From Thermoplasmata archaeon (GTDB lineage: Archaea > Thermoplasmatota > Thermoplasmata > Methanomassiliicoccales > Methanomethylophilaceae), in NCBI GenBank assembly GCA_015063165.1, contig SUSZ01000006.1, positions 1 through 64,000 of the forward strand: DNA of 64,000 nt, read 5' to 3'. Shown one piece after another: positions 1 to 25,439 of this stretch (position 1 is its first letter; the number at the start of each line of letters is the position of its first letter). The translations under genes and the position numbers were made by a program. The notes under the pieces are model-generated. The model made no database searches. It had not been told where the DNA came from and saw only the letters and a program-made list of their open reading frames with translations.

Positions 1-61
1 CGCATTCTTCGTTGGGACAGGATACATCCGTATACTTTTGCTTTGGGCCCCGTTCTCCCAT
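1..61 (-). mobile_element. N-terminal fragment of a probable zinc-ribbon transposase
   Basis: An open frame begins with ATG at 61-59 on the minus strand and runs off the window after 20 codons. It starts MGERGPK and contains CPNEEC near residues 15-20, which looks like the first half of a zinc ribbon. A basic GPK start followed by Cys-Pro-Asn is how several IS1-like or zinc-ribbon transposases begin; that match is recalled, not searched. An AT-rich TATA-like stretch lies at about 85-100. It borders the AT-rich island, so it fits a mobile-element boundary. Only 20 residues are visible, so the family is uncertain. Confidence 0.45.
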
Positions 62-83
62 TTAACCACTAGAATGAGATGGG

Positions 84-100
84 AGTATAAATATAAAATA
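84..100. promoter_or_regulatory. AT-rich divergent promoter region (TATA-like)
   Basis: The sequence TATAAATATAAAATAT lies between the minus-strand transposase start (61) and the plus-strand coiled-coil gene start (136). On either strand it is about 25-40 bases from the start codon, a usual archaeal TATA distance. Which strand it serves cannot be settled from sequence. Confidence 0.4.
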
Positions 101-135
101 TCAACTAAAAAGTATAACATCACCAAGAATCATTT

Positions 136-1842
136 TTGAAAAAATATGCATTGATATATGACATCCCCGACAATCCTTTGGAAAGAATAAGTGGGATTTT
201 GGAACAAATGAAATCAGAACAAATGGATGTAAAACAGCGTATTGATTCTTTGGTAGCAACTATAAAAAATAAACAAACCGAATTAAAAAATTCTAAAGAT
301 CCTTCTAAAATAGAGTCGTTGAGAAGAACAATAGCGGAACTTAATAAAACAATAGGTGAAAAGATAAATCAAAGAGACGCCAACAAACAATTATCGACTG
401 AGTTAACTAGCCTTTATTATGCAAAAATGCTAGCCAATGCCCAGTCATATTATCATGATTTGTACATGCAACAGTTGGATAAAAATAAGCAAGGAAGGAA
501 AGCTAAAACCTCAAATAAGAAAATAAAAGCCGAATATGATTTGTCGGTATCTAATGCTAGGGTGGCTTGTCAGCGGTTAAAAGAATCATATGATTTATCA
601 TGTGATAAAATTAATATGATTGAGCACTTGAGTTCAGTGCCATGGCTTAATTATGAGCTAGATGTTGAAGACATGCTAGCTAAAAAAGAGCTCCCCAATG
701 CATTTTTAGAAAAATGTAATAATCTGAAGTCACAGATCGAAATTGAAAAAAAGAATATAATGGAAGATGAGAGTGCTTCTAAATCTGATGTTCTGAAGGG
801 ATTGATAGACATTCTGAGTGCACACTTGGATTCTGAAATGAAGATCTTGGACAGCCCTTTATCAGAAGTTTACTCTAAACTTTTAGAAGAGTATCAAAGT
901 CTTAGAGTTCAAAAAGAGGAATTTGATACTATGGCAGAAATAGTGTCCTCATTGAGCAAGGTCGCTTCTGATATTGAGGGCGCGGAAGCCAAGTTAAAAT
1001 CGATATTGCCAGAGCCTGTTATCGAAGAGTATGGGACTGATGAAGAATTGGCACAAAAGGTGAATAAGGCCTATGAGGAATTACAGAGGCTCGAGTCGGT
1101 GGCAAAGAAATACGACGTATACCCAGAGATATGTTCCTCCATAATTTTAACGGCATTGAACAATCCAGATGTTTCTGCATACTGTAGTTATGAATTAACT
1201 AAACTTAAAGAAAAAATAGGCGAGTTAGACAGCAGCGTATCTGTGTTAAACAGTGAATTAGAGGGAAGAAATGGTTTTAATTCCAAGTTACAGTACAATG
1301 AAGTTAAATTGAGAGAAATGGAAGACTATGCCGTCAATCCACTTATAGATTATCAGGAAGAATTGAACGAACTTCAGACCCAAGTCGGATCTATTGGAAA
1401 AGACATGGGAACTAAGATTAAGATAATGACCGATTTGACCAATAGGATAGAGCCAACTTCTTATTCTGAAAATAATGATTTTATCGAATCTGTGTGGTTT
1501 GAGCTTGGAAAAAGGGTTGCAACCATTCGCCACATTGGTATAGAGTATGAAGTCGTTCGTGTGGACAACCTAAAGGAAGAGATCGTTACAAAATCAGGCG
1601 TGGTTATCTCGTACCAGGATACGGGTACGGGAGAATCTCAAAATGCATATCTCAAGAGTTTGTTAAATAGTAATTCTGGGAAGATAATGTTGGCGATGTT
1701 TGATGAATCAGAGCACATGGATCCGGACATGGTATCTGATGTTCAATCTAGGTTAAAAGAACTGTATGATGATGGTTTTTTGCTTTTGGGATTGATGGCG
1801 AGTCCAGGAAAGGAACCGGAGGTGATTCCGTATGTTGGATGA
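136..1842 (+). CDS. Coiled-coil ABC/SMC-like ATPase half without Walker A
   Basis: A 568-residue protein with a TTG start. Residues about 15-470 are rich in long charged helices typical of coiled coil. The C-terminal ~70 residues hold a signature-like GTGESQ (about 493-498) followed by a Walker-B-like IMLAMFDESEHMD (about 512-524), the order seen in the second half of SMC/Rad50 ATPase heads. No Walker A (GxxxxGKS/T) is visible, so it is either half of a split ATPase, truncated by the element upstream, or a degenerate non-hydrolysing head. A TAA at 115-117 blocks in-frame extension. Its stop overlaps the next start (ATG at 1832), so the two are translationally coupled. Codon use is AT-rich, unlike the flanks. 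Function unknown; a defence or DNA-maintenance role is inference. Confidence 0.75.
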   Translation: MKKYALIYDIPDNPLERISGILEQMKSEQMDVKQRIDSLVATIKNKQTELKNSKDPSKIESLRRTIAELNKTIGEKINQRDANKQLSTELTSLYYAKMLANAQSYYHDLYMQQLDKNKQGRKAKTSNKKIKAEYDLSVSNARVACQRLKESYDLSCDKINMIEHLSSVPWLNYELDVEDMLAKKELPNAFLEKCNNLKSQIEIEKKNIMEDESASKSDVLKGLIDILSAHLDSEMKILDSPLSEVYSKLLEEYQSLRVQKEEFDTMAEIVSSLSKVASDIEGAEAKLKSILPEPVIEEYGTDEELAQKVNKAYEELQRLESVAKKYDVYPEICSSIILTALNNPDVSAYCSYELTKLKEKIGELDSSVSVLNSELEGRNGFNSKLQYNEVKLREMEDYAVNPLIDYQEELNELQTQVGSIGKDMGTKIKIMTDLTNRIEPTSYSENNDFIESVWFELGKRVATIRHIGIEYEVVRVDNLKEEIVTKSGVVISYQDTGTGESQNAYLKSLLNSNSGKIMLAMFDESEHMDPDMVSDVQSRLKELYDDGFLLLGLMASPGKEPEVIPYVG

Positions 1843-2686
1843 AGCAGAATTATCAATACTTAAACGGATGTACGATAGGTGTTGCGATTCGTCCTCGATC
1901 AAAAAAGGTAGCTTTTTATGTAGTTCATTGAAGAGTACAAAGAACAAGATAGTAAAGAGTATAACTGCTGCTAATTGTTGCTATAATGCCACTATGTCGG
2001 ATCCTTTTGCTAAACAATTGGAAAAATATGGATATGTAGTATTATACAAGCCTGGAATTTATGTTTTGACTTCAAAAGGCGTTTGGGAGGTAGAGTCGAG
2101 GTATTACGGACTAACATTAGAAACGCTGTTGGAAGCATTCAATGAAAAATATGATTGTGGCTGTGATAAATTAAGCGATCGCAATAAGGTCATTCTATTC
2201 GCAACTATTGCATCTCATGCATTTTCTAGTACCTCATCAATAAAAAATAGTTCGGAATACGAAAGTATTTTCATGGAATTGATGGAAGAGTCTTATAATT
2301 TCTTATCCTCCATAGAAAGGATCTCTATACCCTATGAGAAATTTTCAGGTGGCACGAAAGCAACAACAAAGCGGCCCTCTTCTAAGATAATGAGTACTGT
2401 AAATGAGTTACCAGGCTCCACCTATTCATTGTATGTTTCAAAGAATAGTACATACTATGTATCAATTTATAATAATGGTAAATTAGATACAGAAGCTTTG
2501 AAAAGTTTGTTGTCTGTGGTGTTTGGTGTAGTTAATGTTGATGAAATAGCCGTTATTGCAGAAACTTGCAGGAACATTTCATCGAAAGTGTGTGCACAAT
2601 TTAACGATGAGTATGATGCAGCACTTGAGAATACTTTGGATGACACTATTGAGGAATGTTTGGAAGAACTGGCGTTCGGAAGGTAA
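1832..2686 (+). CDS. Unknown partner protein with N-terminal winged-helix-like region
   Basis: 284 residues, ATG start 11 bases inside the preceding coiled-coil gene, TAA stop. Residues ~1-90 look like a winged helix (charged helices, then YGYVVLYKPGIYVLTSKGVWEVE, a strand-turn-strand wing). The rest is mixed helix with a possible small alpha/beta domain at ~205-250. No catalytic motif is recognised. The overlap suggests a subunit or regulator acting with the ATPase-like protein, as kleisin-adjacent winged-helix proteins do with SMC heads; this is an analogy only. The stop abuts the stop of the convergent gene at 2687. Confidence 0.7.
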   Translation: MLDEAELSILKRMYDRCCDSSSIKKGSFLCSSLKSTKNKIVKSITAANCCYNATMSDPFAKQLEKYGYVVLYKPGIYVLTSKGVWEVESRYYGLTLETLLEAFNEKYDCGCDKLSDRNKVILFATIASHAFSSTSSIKNSSEYESIFMELMEESYNFLSSIERISIPYEKFSGGTKATTKRPSSKIMSTVNELPGSTYSLYVSKNSTYYVSIYNNGKLDTEALKSLLSVVFGVVNVDEIAVIAETCRNISSKVCAQFNDEYDAALENTLDDTIEECLEELAFGR

Positions 2687-3364
2687 TTAATCAAAAATGT
2701 TCCTCAATCTGTCTTCGAGTTCATAAGGGAAGCTGTGGTCAATAGTCTTGAGCAGTGCTCTTGTACTATTGCGTCTTCTTTTGATCGTGGTTCCATTGTG
2801 AACCGAAGACAGTTCCTTATCAATCGATACTGGTCCGTATTTTGATTGGATCATTAAATTTTTAATAGTTCCCGTAGAAAGTAGCATCTTGGAAAACATT
2901 TTGTATCTTTCATCATCGTTTAATCTAGAGAAAATGACTCCCATTTTTGTTAACATGATTGTACGAGGTGTAGTGCGATTGATTTTAGCCAATCCCACTG
3001 ATGCAAGCAATTTTCCATGGCATTCTCCATACTTTTTCAATGCAGGTATGTTGTCGGACGAACAACCAGGGAGCAAACTTCCTAATTCGTTATAGGTAAG
3101 GGGCTCAGCTAAAAGATGATTTATTGAATAGATGATGGATGCATCAACGGAGCTAAACATCGGTGTTTCTTTTGCTCTTAACAAGGATATGCTGCTTTTA
3201 TCGACTACCTCTAGTATTTGGTGAAGGTCTGCTTTATATATTGCATTAAATAGAGGCAGAGCTTCATTCTCTTTTATATTGTCTTTATAATCTGGATTTG
3301 AAAAATATTTTTCTAGCAGCATACGTTCTTCATTAGTCAAGAGGGAGTCAGAAGTTTGTTCCAT
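2687..3364 (-). CDS. Protein sharing the C-terminal module of the neighbouring radical SAM protein
   Basis: 225 residues from ATG 3364 (a GTG at 3373 is an alternative), TAA stop. Its last ~139 residues align end to end with the last ~139 residues of the upstream radical SAM protein: shared LTY, GSLL, KYGE-H, K-LA, LA-I, then T-I, LM-SK, RR-S and ALLK positions, and a final RL-NI. The module looks like a winged helix with a helical tail. It starts 25 bases after the radical SAM stop on the same strand, so the two are probably co-transcribed. Function is unknown; it could be a stand-alone specificity or DNA-binding subunit, or an immunity-type partner. Confidence 0.7.
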   Translation of the reverse strand: MEQTSDSLLTNEERMLLEKYFSNPDYKDNIKENEALPLFNAIYKADLHQILEVVDKSSISLLRAKETPMFSSVDASIIYSINHLLAEPLTYNELGSLLPGCSSDNIPALKKYGECHGKLLASVGLAKINRTTPRTIMLTKMGVIFSRLNDDERYKMFSKMLLSTGTIKNLMIQSKYGPVSIDKELSSVHNGTTIKRRRNSTRALLKTIDHSFPYELEDRLRNIFD

Positions 3365-3389
3365 CAGTCTCACTGCCTATTGTATTGTT

Positions 3390-5534
3390 TCATTCTATTT
3401 CCGGCATGATGTTGTTCAAACGCTTGTCTATTTCGTTCGAGTTAAGTTTCTTCAATTCTTTTAATAAGGCTTTGATTGATGTTGTTCTACGTACGGCAGT
3501 GCTAGTTTTTAACATTGTTAGATCATTTCTGATATCGATTGGATTCAGTTTTGATTTTTTCATAAGAGATTGAATAACCGGTGTGCGAAGAATTAACTTC
3601 GGTACTATGTCATTGTAATTGCAGTTCCGAAGACATTCACCGATTGGTGATATTTTTATAGTATTGGGTTTTTCTTTTTTATCTATCCATGCAAGATCTA
3701 ACATTGCAAGTATCTTGGCATGGTTTTCCCCATACTTTTGTTTACTAACCTCTGTATCCGTTTTACGTCCTTCCAGTAAGGAACCAAACACAACATATGT
3801 AAGGCCGGATTTTGAGAGGTGGACCAGTCCATCGGCAGCATATTTTAATTTGCTAATTTGCGGGATGTCTTCTGGAACTAAATCTGAATCAGGGATATTA
3901 TCAATAATGTCAAGAATGGCTTCTATTGGGGTTTCATGTAATGTATGCAGGACCTTATACGCGAGGGCATTGATCGGTGTTTTGTTCATACAGCAGTGAC
4001 GAGGTTTGACAATAAAACAAGAGAAATCGAGACTCCCCTCAAAGTATTGTCTTATAAAAGTGATTTTGTCTGTATTATCATTGAAGAAATCGTCCCAGGT
4101 TAAGTATTCCCCTTTGTTTTTACAAACATCACAAGGATGTGTCATTTTTCTTCCATAGCTAACTACGCACTCGTTTATTTGATCAAATCTCATATCGAAG
4201 TATTTTTTTGCAATGTCGGGGCGATCTCTTTCAAACAACAGCATTGCTTGATAGGAGGCGCACATCTCGTTGTTGTTGTAGTCCCTATTCGCTTCGCAAA
4301 ACTGTCTAAATGATTTCTTTTTGAAGAAATTGGGTTGGTTGCACCACCTTGCCAATTCTGTATAGACGCCTCTGTATCTGCTTTCTTTGTACTTTTCGAA
4401 ACGCATAATATATGGAAGACAACCGTACTTCATCAGGATCTGGATGCGTTCGAAGACGCCTTCTATGTCCACTTGGTCACGTTCTTCCTGGCTATTGAAG
4501 CCATTCATTCTTTTCAAGAAGTAGTGGTGGTAATTATCTTGAAGATCTGTAGCAACAACTTCGTAGTCCCACGAGTCAAACGCACATAGTACATACAGTT
4601 TTGTTGTTTTAGAGCACCACTTCCTCCACAATTGTAATTTTCTCTCTATGAGTTTGGCTTCATTTACATGGTCAAAAGCAAATATGAAGTCTCCATGGTA
4701 CTTGCTGTTGCAAAGTTTTTTAGCGTGACCCTCTTGCAACAAACGAATATCAAGACCTTGTCTAAATTGAAATGGTTTCCCAGTGGCATTCAGATCATCA
4801 AAAATTTTTTCCCATCCGTCTTTTAAAGCGAAGATGTTGTCATCCCATAAGTAAATCATTGGACGATCTTTATCTAAAAATTCATCTAAGGGGGAATTAA
4901 CGAATGCATGGTCGTATTTTCTATTAACGCAAAAGTGGCATTTTCTGAAGCAGCCTCTTGATGTAAAACCAATGGAGTAGTTTAGATAGTCGTCAAAATA
5001 GGATTTTTTTCTTCCTTCTGATATTTTACAATCCACATAATCTTTGTAGAGAGAGTATAGTGGCCTAAAATGCTCAATATCGTGGTGGAGGTTGCGTCCT
5101 CCATCAATTTCAAAGAACCCTGTACCCCCTATCAGTAGTACGGTTTTTGTCGGTCTTTTTTTTTCGTACTTGTTCAATGCTTTATTTATACATCCATTTA
5201 AAGAAGAAAGGTTATTGAGGTATGGCCTTAGATATTTCTCTAATTGTTTGGGAATTTTTGTGAAATTAAAAACCTTAGACGCTATTATTAGATCATACCT
5301 TTCGAGATTATTCAGGTCTTCCTCCTAGTAAATTAATTTGATTTTATGCCCTCTGCTTTTACAATAACCAGCCATTTTCATCTGGGCAAGATTGGGGTGC
5401 CGCGTACCGTTGTCCAGTAGGTCAACATCCATCATTCCTATGTTGAGCACGACTGAGTTAACCGGTACAACGTCTGGAAGATCATCCGAATAGATCTCTA
5501 TAGGTAACTGAGTGTTTTTTTTAGGTGGGCACAT
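3390..5534 (-). CDS. Radical SAM protein with in-frame amber codon (predicted pyrrolysine 70)
   Basis: A single frame runs from ATG 5534 to TGA 3392-3390 with one internal TAG at 5327-5325 (codon 70), giving 714 residues if read through. Residues ~25-115 resemble the N-terminal domain of B12-binding-type radical SAM proteins: NGTRHPNLA, then GH-IKL, then after the amber codon YDLIIASKVF and FTKIP. The cluster motif CFRKCHFC (Cys 195, 199, 202) is the CxxxCxxC site for the 4Fe-4S/SAM centre. Further Cys-rich motifs (CDVCKNKG, RHCC) follow. The C-terminal ~139 residues are a module repeated in the next gene. A start at MNKYEKK (5177) would lose the N-terminal domain. Reaction unknown. Confidence 0.8.
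5325..5327 (-). other. In-frame TAG, candidate pyrrolysine codon in the radical SAM gene
   Basis: Minus-strand TAG at codon 70. Both flanks belong to the same recognisable domain: family-typical GHKIKL just before and NLERYDLIIASKVF just after. A true stop here would split one domain. Confidence 0.65.
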
Positions 5535-13816: not shown

Positions 13817-13858
13817 TACTTGATTATGGATAATTGGATATTTCATCCAAGTGATAAC

Positions 13859-15295
13859 ATGGACAAGAAATATATGGCAATCGCGATTGTCGCAGTCGCC
13901 GTTATTCTTGTTGCCGTCGCTGCTGTTGTCCTCATGGGGCAGAACGGCAAAGGCGGAGACAACAAATACGACCTCAATGACATCGCTAATGCGGAGCAGA
14001 ACACCTCTATCACCGGAAAAGAGGGTTGCTACGATAAGTTCCCCGCAATTGAAGAATGCAATCTCGTCATCTACGGGAATGTCAACAACGATATGGACAT
14101 CGATAACTCAGACATGACCGCTCTCAGAAAGATTATTGCGGACAACAGCTGGGACAAAAACAAGAACCCCTTCGCTGATGTGAACTGCGACGGTAAAGTC
14201 AATAACAGCGACGTCACCGCTCTTCAGAAGATCCTCAACAAAGAAAAGACGCTTCTTTACTACGTCAACTCCAATGGATACCCCGACTACATCCATTATC
14301 CCGTAACCGGAAAGATCGGTATCAACTACGACTACGGATATATGTGCGCTCAGATCCTTGGTAACTACGACCAGATTACCGCTGGAACCGCCAGATGGAC
14401 CCAGGAGAAAGTTACTGACACCATGTACCCTGGAGTTCACTCGTTCTACAACATGGGGGATGGAAAGACCGTCGAAGAGGCTCTCGCCGCTTACCAGAAT
14501 GCTGGAGTCACCGTCATTATGGGAACCGGATCCACATATGACCTCAACGTCGCTCTCCATGAGTCCGGATACGGAATCGACTGTCTCAACCTCAGGTTCG
14601 ATCAGGTAATCAACCTCTCCTACGTTCCACCGATTGCCAGACTTATTACTGCCGGATTCATCTTCGACCAGATGGACAATGCACTCACCTTCTATAACTG
14701 GTGGAATAACCTCAACAACAAGATCGAAACGATTTTCGACGCTGCTGGACTTGACAAGAAGACTTTTGTCGTTCCCTACAACACCAACCAGGCTGTTGAG
14801 ACTTCTGTGGATGACTGTCTCTCCAACGGAAGAACCATGGGAGATTACACAAACGTCAGAGATAACCTTCCCATGACTCCCGCCCTCACTCCTTCTTCGG
14901 AAGCTACCGGCCCTTGTTATACCACTACCATCGAGTATCTGCTTACCGTAAACCCTGATGTACTCATTATCAGCATGTGGGGTTCTCTGACGGATGCTAC
15001 CTCTTACAACGATGCATACGCAGTATTCAAAGAGAAAGCGGATTACTTCAAGAACTTTGACGCATACAAGAAAGGAGATGTTTACGGAGTCTGCTACGAA
15101 ACCTTCGGAACTTATGCGGGAGTCGCCGTTCTGTATCTTCTCTGCTCGTACGTCTACCCCGACCTCTTCTCTGAGGAGGACGGATGGAACTACGTCGACT
15201 ACTACTTCGACAACTTCACCCTGCTCGACAAGAAGACTGACCTGAAGAATGCAGGAGGACTCATTGTCTTCCAGCTTAACAGGACCAAACCCTGA
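13859..15295 (+). CDS. Substrate-binding protein with dockerin domain, corrinoid/iron-type ABC importer
   Basis: 478 residues from ATG 13859. An N-terminal hydrophobic helix (about residues 5-27) anchors or exports it. Next comes a type I dockerin-like pair of calcium loops: GNVNNDMDIDNSDMTALRKI and ADVNCDGKVNNSDVTALQKI (about residues 65-120). The remainder is a periplasmic-binding-protein-like domain, with GVTVIMGTGSTYDL and VNPDVLIISMWG. It heads an operon with a FecCD permease and an ATPase, 450 bases after the corrinoid salvage genes. Corrinoid uptake is therefore the preferred guess; iron chelate is the alternative. Codon use is less GC-rich than the cob operon. Confidence 0.82.
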   Translation: MDKKYMAIAIVAVAVILVAVAAVVLMGQNGKGGDNKYDLNDIANAEQNTSITGKEGCYDKFPAIEECNLVIYGNVNNDMDIDNSDMTALRKIIADNSWDKNKNPFADVNCDGKVNNSDVTALQKILNKEKTLLYYVNSNGYPDYIHYPVTGKIGINYDYGYMCAQILGNYDQITAGTARWTQEKVTDTMYPGVHSFYNMGDGKTVEEALAAYQNAGVTVIMGTGSTYDLNVALHESGYGIDCLNLRFDQVINLSYVPPIARLITAGFIFDQMDNALTFYNWWNNLNNKIETIFDAAGLDKKTFVVPYNTNQAVETSVDDCLSNGRTMGDYTNVRDNLPMTPALTPSSEATGPCYTTTIEYLLTVNPDVLIISMWGSLTDATSYNDAYAVFKEKADYFKNFDAYKKGDVYGVCYETFGTYAGVAVLYLLCSYVYPDLFSEEDGWNYVDYYFDNFTLLDKKTDLKNAGGLIVFQLNRTKP

Positions 15296-24320: not shown

Positions 24321-25439
24321 TCAGTCGAATCCCATGATCCCGCGGTAGAGCTCGTGGACCTTGTCGACAAGGTCCGCGCAGGTGATCTGCCCCTTGGATT
24401 CGATGATGGCTCCGACGGAGGCTCCTCCGCATCCGACGCCTTCCTTGATGAATCCCCACTCGTAGGCCTGCAGCCCTTCGTAGGGACTATCACTATAGTC
24501 TACGTTGACATAGACGATCGGGATGCGGTCCGAGATGCCGTCCATGATCCTCTTCATGCTCGAGTTCGGATCGTTCATGAGCCACCTGGTGGTCCCCTGG
24601 AAGAAGTTGCCCACGACTTCGGGGTGCATCTTCGCGACTCCTGCCATCACAGCGGCCATCTGGGTCCCGCCTCCGACGATGACAGGGACGCTCTTGGCGG
24701 CTCCCGCGATTATGCCGATGTTGGCGGGCATCATGGGGTCTCCGACGCATTCTATGGCCTTCAGAGGGTCGTCCGCGAGGTCTCCGGGCTTGATTCCGGC
24801 GGCTTCCAGTGCTTCCGCCACGAGCCTGCTCTTGAGCTCCTTGGGGTTCTTCGGGGAGCTGCTGCTCACGAGGTTCTCCTTCAGGACTCCCATGGCCATC
24901 ATGACGGCCAGTGCGGTGGTGGTCCCTCCGGCGCAGCTCTCGCTCACGATGACGAAGTCGTACGCCTTGGCGAGCATCTCTCCGAGCATGTACCCCTTCT
25001 CGTACTCCTGCCTGACGTTCTTCACGGCGTGACCGGTGGTGATCTTCTCCCCGCACACGCCTCCCATGTCGAAGTACGGCACGTAGGGGACGATCTCGCA
25101 ACCTCCGTTGACTATGTAGTAGGGTATGCTGGACAGCCTCAGCGCGGCCATCGTCAGGGTCGCGGGGGTGGGGATCCCTCCGGGGTTGATCGGTATCCCC
25201 TTCATGCAGGTGGTCTTCCCGCTCACCAGGATCTCGGCATCCGCCGCAGGGGTGAACATCGTGAGCTCAGGGGTGTCTCCCGCGTCGGAGACTCCGGGGA
25301 TGGTCGAAGTGCGGGTGTTCGCCACGGTGCAGGTGAACACTCCTCTTTTCCCCCAGATCCTGGAGAGGATCTCTTTGGCTTGCTCCTCGTCGCCGTACAC
25401 GCTGAGCGACTCGGGTAACTCGAATCCTGTCATTATCAT
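24321..25439 (-). CDS. cobT: Archaeal nicotinate-nucleotide:base phosphoribosyltransferase (CobT)
   Basis: 372 residues from ATG 25439; GTG 25445 is an alternative. It activates the lower-ligand base to alpha-ribazole phosphate for the nucleotide loop. Family features: NPGGIPTPATLTMAAL, GGVCGEKITTGHAV, ESCAGGTTTALAVMMAMG, VGDPMMPANIGIIAGA and VGGGTQMAAV. It follows a phosphatase-superfamily gene with overlapping or abutting codons, itself coupled to hypF, and supplies the partner substrate for CobS in the other cob operon. Confidence 0.9.
   Translation of the reverse strand: MIMTGFELPESLSVYGDEEQAKEILSRIWGKRGVFTCTVANTRTSTIPGVSDAGDTPELTMFTPAADAEILVSGKTTCMKGIPINPGGIPTPATLTMAALRLSSIPYYIVNGGCEIVPYVPYFDMGGVCGEKITTGHAVKNVRQEYEKGYMLGEMLAKAYDFVIVSESCAGGTTTALAVMMAMGVLKENLVSSSSPKNPKELKSRLVAEALEAAGIKPGDLADDPLKAIECVGDPMMPANIGIIAGAAKSVPVIVGGGTQMAAVMAGVAKMHPEVVGNFFQGTTRWLMNDPNSSMKRIMDGISDRIPIVYVNVDYSDSPYEGLQAYEWGFIKEGVGCGGASVGAIIESKGQITCADLVDKVHELYRGIMGFD

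Follow-up and report, generated by a model that had tools for sequence, protein, structure and literature searches.

Methylation, phosphorothioation and 7-deazaguanines are the self-marks known in restriction systems. A methylase is a defining part of DISARM, and NurA and HerA are, from published biochemistry, a helicase-nuclease pair. The excerpted portions of PMC10853773 treat Pbe and DndFGH, and describe cytosine methylases replacing phosphorothioation; in them, the term "radical SAM" is used only for DndC. Another radical SAM module, with DUF483, is described from Thermus phages in the excerpt of PMC11437467. Here, we examine an AT-rich island of four genes, initially annotated as a candidate defence or DNA-interaction system, at the start of a 64,000-nucleotide stretch of archaeal DNA (the window). 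One of these genes belongs to a family of radical SAM proteins, which we call RS.

An AT-rich island at a contig edge

The first base of the window is also the first of contig C58, one of 67 contigs in the assembly. GC content is 0.34–0.39 across positions 1–5000 and about 0.53–0.64 for most of the remaining window, bearing out the sharp contrast with the flanks noted in the initial annotation. The four reported ORFs are present, at 136–1842 and 1832–2686 on the plus strand and 2687–3373 and 3390–5534 on the minus strand, and the two units indeed converge, with zero gap (2686/2687). A second dip in GC (0.49–0.53) is seen at 13–18 kb, where the first long ORF (13820–15295) appears by eye to be secreted and dockerin-like. 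The transposase said to adjoin the island was not found: no transposase gene lies at the island in the window, and positions 1–124 are the right end of a multicopy IS, at the contig edge. Eight copies of this end are found, all at contig ends. The AT-rich island is real, and consists of parts of two systems rather than one four-gene system.

The plus-strand unit (136–2686) belongs to a NurA-HerA-ABC-partner operon of which the window holds the right half; contig C53 carries its left part. Its first ORF (136–1842) begins directly after the IS end, lacks Walker A, and encodes the C-terminal fragment of a coiled-coil ABC ATPase, matching residues 129–690 of a 692-aa homologue. Full-length homologues of 692 and 704 aa, from two genomes of the same order, carry GPNSSGKST, and around both the gene order is NurA, HerA, ABC, partner. 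The claimed likeness to coiled-coil ABC proteins holds for what is only a fragment of the gene. Probing the same genome with HerA gave a 48% match on C53, which carries NurA (3442–4539), HerA (1881–3470) and, on the minus strand at 1428–1751, the N-terminal fragment of the ABC protein (residues 1–99, with Walker A). The IS end in the window is flanked by a 9-bp target-site duplication, AAGAATCAT (125–133), the exact reverse complement of C53 126–134. Seven of the eight IS right ends pair with a left end through an exact 9-bp repeat of this kind, and we therefore conclude that the window contig and C53 flank one IS copy. Across the assembly, this multicopy IS with its 9-bp target duplications accounts for breaks at 16 contig ends, of which seven pairs can be matched. 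An IS630-like transposase ORF (C53 267–1421; family name assigned by eye), with 15-base inverted repeats at 224 and 1442, occupies the same gap. Hence the ABC gene has been split by two insertions, and this copy of the unit is dead.

The second plus-strand ORF (1832–2686), initially labelled a winged-helix partner, encodes the ABC ATPase partner protein, the fourth gene of the operon; the winged helix supported by a structural model is instead that of the two minus-strand proteins, described below. Its product has no fitting Pfam family, and its homologues lie directly downstream of the ABC gene in loci L022, L023, L142 and L143. At L022, the Pfam scores are 23.1 bits for NurA (cut-off 21) and 34.0 and 32.4 bits for HerA (cut-offs 23.2 and 22). 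Of 389 genomes in the phylum, 10 have a NurA relative (in two cases a short fragment), and six archaeal genomes besides this one hold related operons. By profile, all four genes stand in order in genomes G119, G019, G360 and G210; in G241 and G286, ORFs of the right size stand at the place of ABC and/or partner, not all of which are scored by the profiles. The operon of G170 is cut inside ABC. Like archaeal HerA-NurA with Mre11-Rad50, these operons combine a coiled-coil ABC ATPase with NurA and HerA, both scoring above Pfam cut-offs; they differ in having an extra partner gene, in their sporadic spread (the 10 of 389 genomes above), and in that no Mre11 was seen, the four-gene operons read having no further gene between NurA and partner. 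By analogy, we infer that the unit may serve in DNA end processing or degradation. Its target is probably foreign DNA, judging from the sporadic spread and from the genes alongside; in G119, for example, the intact operon is directly followed by a gene for a type IV restriction enzyme (L022 12156–15008; PADLOC mREase_IV, 6.6e-218). Some NurA-HerA-ABC loci have IS and methylase-like neighbours. Lamassu was considered for the ABC protein and rejected, as LmuB matches only weakly (PADLOC 2.1e-4, 1.8e-3), LmuA and LmuC are absent, and the neighbours are NurA, HerA and the unmatched partner.

The RS protein and its winged-helix module

The larger minus-strand gene (3390–5534) encodes the RS protein, 714 codons long and a putative writer of a DNA mark. 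Its CxxxCxxC motif (C195, C199 and C202; 4929–4952, minus strand), for a 4Fe-4S cluster, is found in all 63 aligned relatives, rows that were chosen with the motif. It also occurs in all 79 RS loci kept from the best 80 of 107 relatives, in 78 by ORF scan and in the 79th on reading the match. Little or no variation is seen in the family at the cluster cysteines, at D231-D232-N233 or at C398. This conservation is in part a product of selection, because the rows were chosen with the cysteine motif and the scan patterns contained WDDN and WCNQP. Matches to Pfam Radical_SAM fall below the gathering score in the proteins of L024, L084 and L028, and protein P0001 has no match.

The AF2 model of RS, built from 63 alignment rows, has a pLDDT of 88.0 and a pTM of 0.86. 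Over residues 27–451 it matches MgmA (Z 16.4), AprD4 (15.8), the tRNA-modifying MiaB (15.0) and RimO (14.5). With Foldseek, the best hit of the RS model is AprD4 at E 1.2e-3, and neither the RS model nor that of the module described below has a match at E≤0.001; a sequence search of the PDB with the RS profile returned nothing. What RS shares with the MiaB/RimO methylthiotransferases, MgmA and AprD4 is a predicted radical SAM fold and N-terminal Rossmann-like domain (Z 14.5–16.4). It differs from them in its sequence (about 10% identity), its C-terminal winged-helix module and its setting in defence operons. On the strength of the cluster motif and the predicted fold, the RS family is an undescribed member of the radical SAM superfamily.

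The C-terminal module of RS (residues about 528–711; 3402–3953, minus strand) recurs in the neighbouring minus-strand gene (2687–3373), which encodes a stand-alone, DUF7226-like protein of 228 aa with 32% identity to RS residues 528–711 (E 2.7e-19), in agreement with the initial annotation. DUF7226 itself scores below cut-off, in the L024 relative. The AF2 model of the stand-alone protein (pLDDT 94.1) supports a winged helix as the predicted fold of the module common to both proteins. Structural matches to the module have Z 7–8, a range that the tool rates as common; the longest include SspB (149 residues) and FokI (150–153). Among the 79 RS loci, 44 ORFs in 42 loci carry the module, which is fused to RS in 19; in the other 37 loci no recognisable copy is present.

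Restriction modules beside RS

RS relatives were sought across 84,980 species, each represented by a single genome, with scan patterns containing WDDN and WCNQP. This gave 107 relatives, and 79 RS loci were kept from the best 80. ORFs within 10 kb of RS were clustered, and counts were taken from clusters no more than 3 kb upstream and 8 kb downstream. In this set, 68 of the 79 loci have exactly one of four restriction-type modules: Pbe (type A, 28 loci), ParB/SNF2-helicase (type B, 13), DISARM-like (type C, 17) or DptFGH (type D, 10). None of the 79 has two. The remaining 11 comprise four with a PD-(D/E)XK-like protein (L061, L063, L073 and L094; two were tested and score over the Pfam cut-off), four with RS alone (L057, L070, L071 and L087) and three cut by contig ends (L064, L075 and L116). 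Seven loci first scored as "none" and one as "no RS ORF" were assigned by eye to the PD-(D/E)XK-like or solo class. In L073, the RS ORF was masked by a longer antisense ORF. Cultured carriers of RS include Clostridium hydrogeniformans DSM 21757 (type D, L056) and Dysgonomonas sp. 520 (type C, L110), and the pair with a PD-(D/E)XK-like protein at L094 is that of Anaerovibrio lipolyticus.

The association is close. Of 65 distances measured between RS and the module gene after it, 50 fall between −22 and +35 bp, and most of those above 400 bp are consistent with an intervening, separate module gene. Of 448 genes lying more than 1 kb upstream of RS, only 6 belong to the module clusters. Module names derive from one representative per cluster. 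These score 168.5 bits for DptF (cut-off 50), 86 for DptG (20) and 629.4 for DptH (620.65). The type C representatives match DrmA at 1.9e-171 and DrmB only weakly, at 2.2e-8; the SNF2 helicase representative is nearest ZorD/DpdE; and "phosphorothioation-associated protein 4" is a match, below cut-off, to the small gene that stands third in the Pbe type.

Several further arrangements were seen. A small ORF (91–119 aa) precedes RS, often overlapping it, in L089, L092, L113, L115, L118, L121–L123 and L125, mostly in Bacteroidota. At L063 (9341–12136), three genes stand in succession, for a fusion of a PLD-like nuclease with the winged-helix module, for RS and for the PD-(D/E)XK protein. In L028 (7079–10044, G056) and L027 (7527–10547, G125), a gene for a GHKL/HSP90-like ATPase adjoins that of a shorter, distant radical SAM protein, possibly another defence pair; next in the row in L028 are genes that by eye look Vsr-like and cytosine-methylase-like.

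How do the RS operons compare with the systems whose modules they carry? Types A and D have PbeA/PbeC-like or DptF/G/H-like proteins, as in DndCDEA-PbeABCD and DndABCDE-DndFGH (DptFGH). They differ in that RS stands at the place of the DndABCDE writer, and DndC is over cut-off in just one of the 38 RS-Pbe or RS-Dpt genomes (that of L050); on this count, phosphorothioation was rejected as the mark of RS systems. In a genome of the Bacteroidia, G597, the neighbours of DptFGH are DndC (454.4 bits, against a cut-off of 290.4) and a DndD-like gene (227 bits, against 245.85), and in G724 a cysteine desulfurase follows DptH; in 10 RS loci, RS occupies the place that these Dnd-type genes hold beside DptFGH. 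The reciprocal test is small, since DptH was found in only 3 of 295 Bacteroidia genomes. The corresponding search for PbeA in the 295 genomes, at E≤1e-60, found nothing and is not informative.

Type C resembles DISARM in its DrmA-like helicase and weak DrmB match, and differs in having RS in place of the DrmM methylase, along with a NERD helicase and an unnamed 777-aa protein. No methylase motif was found in the 17 type C loci by motif scan. More broadly, a scan of 444 ORFs in 72 operons for methyltransferase motifs gave no convincing hit and three chance hits. The loosened motif test used here matches six of six known methylases, and a stricter version only three; the idea of a methylase hidden in these 72 RS operons was rejected on the loosened motif scan. 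The PD-(D/E)XK loci (type E) recall type II restriction-modification in pairing a small nuclease (PDDEXK_11, over cut-off) with a single putative modification gene, which encodes a radical SAM enzyme rather than a methyltransferase.

RS and its partners have not evolved as fixed sets. On a tree of 78 RS proteins (75 loci, the window and two phages; L064, L073, L075 and L116 excluded), the partner labels require 27 changes (shuffled mean 43.2, minimum 5); the well-supported branches by themselves call for no fewer than 9 changes for module A, 7 for B, 8 for C and 6 for D. Thus, RS moves between machineries, as would an exchangeable writer. RS also occurs in viruses: 15 of 50,697 phage records match, and no restriction module lies beside the phage RS genes in the flanks read. 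RS of the Methanomassiliicoccales virus vir335 groups with that of the window and of L047 (SH-aLRT 96), a position made less sure by its long branch. The RS gene of phage NatCom_21982 shares an overlap with that of a DNA methyltransferase. A scan of viral contigs gave one distant match only (28%). An archaeal plasmid record, LC711081.1, has a distant relative at 24554–25117, annotated as a radical SAM protein with an N-terminal intein.

Within the order of the window's genome, matches to RS were found in 8 of 147 genomes. Apart from the window copy, only that of G039 is near full length (48%), the others being short or distant; the genes after RS in G039 are PbeA-like and PbeC-like (PADLOC 2.3e-196 and 2.1e-89). 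PbeA and PbeC are absent from the island beside the window RS, and a search of the same genome for PbeA gave nothing beyond a 67-aa helicase match at 1.7e-4. With no recognisable partner nearby, the window RS and the second module protein are a putative orphan writer or a remnant.

We found no report linking RS with Pbe, Dpt or DISARM modules in the open-access PMC literature; a 2020 survey of ABC ATPases, outside that scope, may mention such a link. The excerpts of PMC10853773, PMC12458937, PMC12839542, PMC6459918, PMC12926258 and PMC11437467 contain no mention of it. The initial statement that the island matches no named system is sustained for RS, and not for the partners of RS elsewhere, which belong to named systems (Pbe, Dpt and DISARM).

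RS as a candidate writer of a DNA self-mark

With moderate confidence, we favour the view that RS supplies the marking function of a defence akin to restriction-modification, altering host DNA by radical chemistry, with partner modules that attack unmarked or wrongly marked DNA. The winged-helix module, in its fused form and in the second copy in the window, would bind DNA and choose sites. From SAM and the 4Fe-4S cluster, the radical SAM core would generate a radical and alter a base or sugar carbon of host DNA, and the resulting self-mark would replace that made by a methylase or by DndABCDE. Attack on DNA that lacks the mark or carries it wrongly would then fall to the partner nucleases and helicases, whether of Pbe, Dpt, DISARM-like or SNF2 modules or a PD-(D/E)XK protein standing alone, and phages carrying RS alone could wear the same mark and so hide. 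Action of RS on DNA, specificity conferred by the module, and the identity of the mark are presumed in this scheme; likeness to MiaB and MgmA suggests methylthiolation and C-methylation as candidate chemistries. We are evenly divided on the broader proposition that the family writes a carbon-position DNA self-mark by radical chemistry, beyond those of methylases and Dnd, that five or more unrelated restriction machineries can read this interchangeable label, and that phages and archaeal viruses copy it to pass as self. Several points count against RS as a writer. No known DNA mark is tied to the family, matches to Pfam Radical_SAM stay below cut-off in the members tested, the winged-helix matches of the module fall in a common range of Z, a recognisable module is missing from 37 of the 79 loci, the partner names derive from single representatives, and PbeA was not found in the window's genome. 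In addition, the window copy has an in-frame stop and adjoins a dead system.

The last point bears on the copy rather than the family. As the initial annotation had it, the gene is amber, with one in-frame TAG at codon 70 (5325–5327, minus strand); the relative in G039 has no stop at this position. It is conceivable, if not our preferred account, that the window RS is a functionless pseudogene, kept by chance in a decaying island next to a neighbour broken by two IS elements, in which case the family at large is not concerned. This TAG is, however, the only one in 714 codons, and the three cluster cysteines are kept. Moreover, the genome encodes PylS (255.3 bits, cut-off 178.15), so TAG may be read, and codon 70 possibly specifies pyrrolysine.

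Alternatively, RS might be an effector that makes an antiviral nucleotide or damages the nucleic acid of the invader, with the modules assisting. There is precedent in the prokaryotic viperins, which are radical SAM defence enzymes (excerpt of PMC12926258), and viperin is among the structural matches of RS; PADLOC gives no viperin hit. The viperin scores (Z 7.6 and 6.6) are nonetheless far below those of MiaB, MgmA and AprD4 (15–16). The modules already include nucleases and helicases, RS is fused to a DNA-binding-like module, and solo copies in phages would be odd for an antiviral effector. We regard this role as unlikely.

MgmA and RimO act on proteins. Their place among the top matches of RS raises the prospect that RS modifies a protein of the complex, and a match to spore photoproduct lyase (Z 7.1), which acts on DNA, that it repairs or removes a mark rather than writing one. 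The partner sets of RS number five or more and are unrelated, however, which makes a protein substrate common to all improbable, and self-marking better explains the solo copies of phages. For these reasons, we doubt that RS has either function.

Finally, the four genes might be one system in this lineage, with NurA-HerA-ABC-partner as a sixth type of RS restriction module. This is suggested by the zero-gap convergence of the plus-strand unit with the RS module gene, their common low GC and the convergent Pbe arrangements known from L077 and L082. We consider it very improbable and reject it here. RS is missing from the flanks fetched for six operons of the NurA-HerA-ABC type, and the genomes of the order that match RS do not include G119 or G019. 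NurA, HerA, ABC and partner find no match among the 1148 ORFs that surround RS at its 79 loci (from the best 80 of 107 relatives). In the genomes and loci examined, co-occurrence of the four families, which had been proposed as a check, is confined to this genome, the homologues otherwise occurring independently. The suspected link to defence or DNA interaction fares better when each half is taken by itself, the one through NurA, HerA and the ABC protein, the other through the tight association of RS with restriction modules.

Our results suggest that what is new here is a restriction-modification-like defence with a new kind of writer, RS. The two-gene form, RS with a small nuclease, would offer the simplest case for study, and a direct test should become feasible in cultured gut and environmental bacteria. 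If RS does write a self-mark, this would explain how Pbe-, Dpt- and DISARM-type modules function in genomes that lack the usual writer, and the radical SAM enzyme would add a further mark chemistry to those by which cells label their own DNA.
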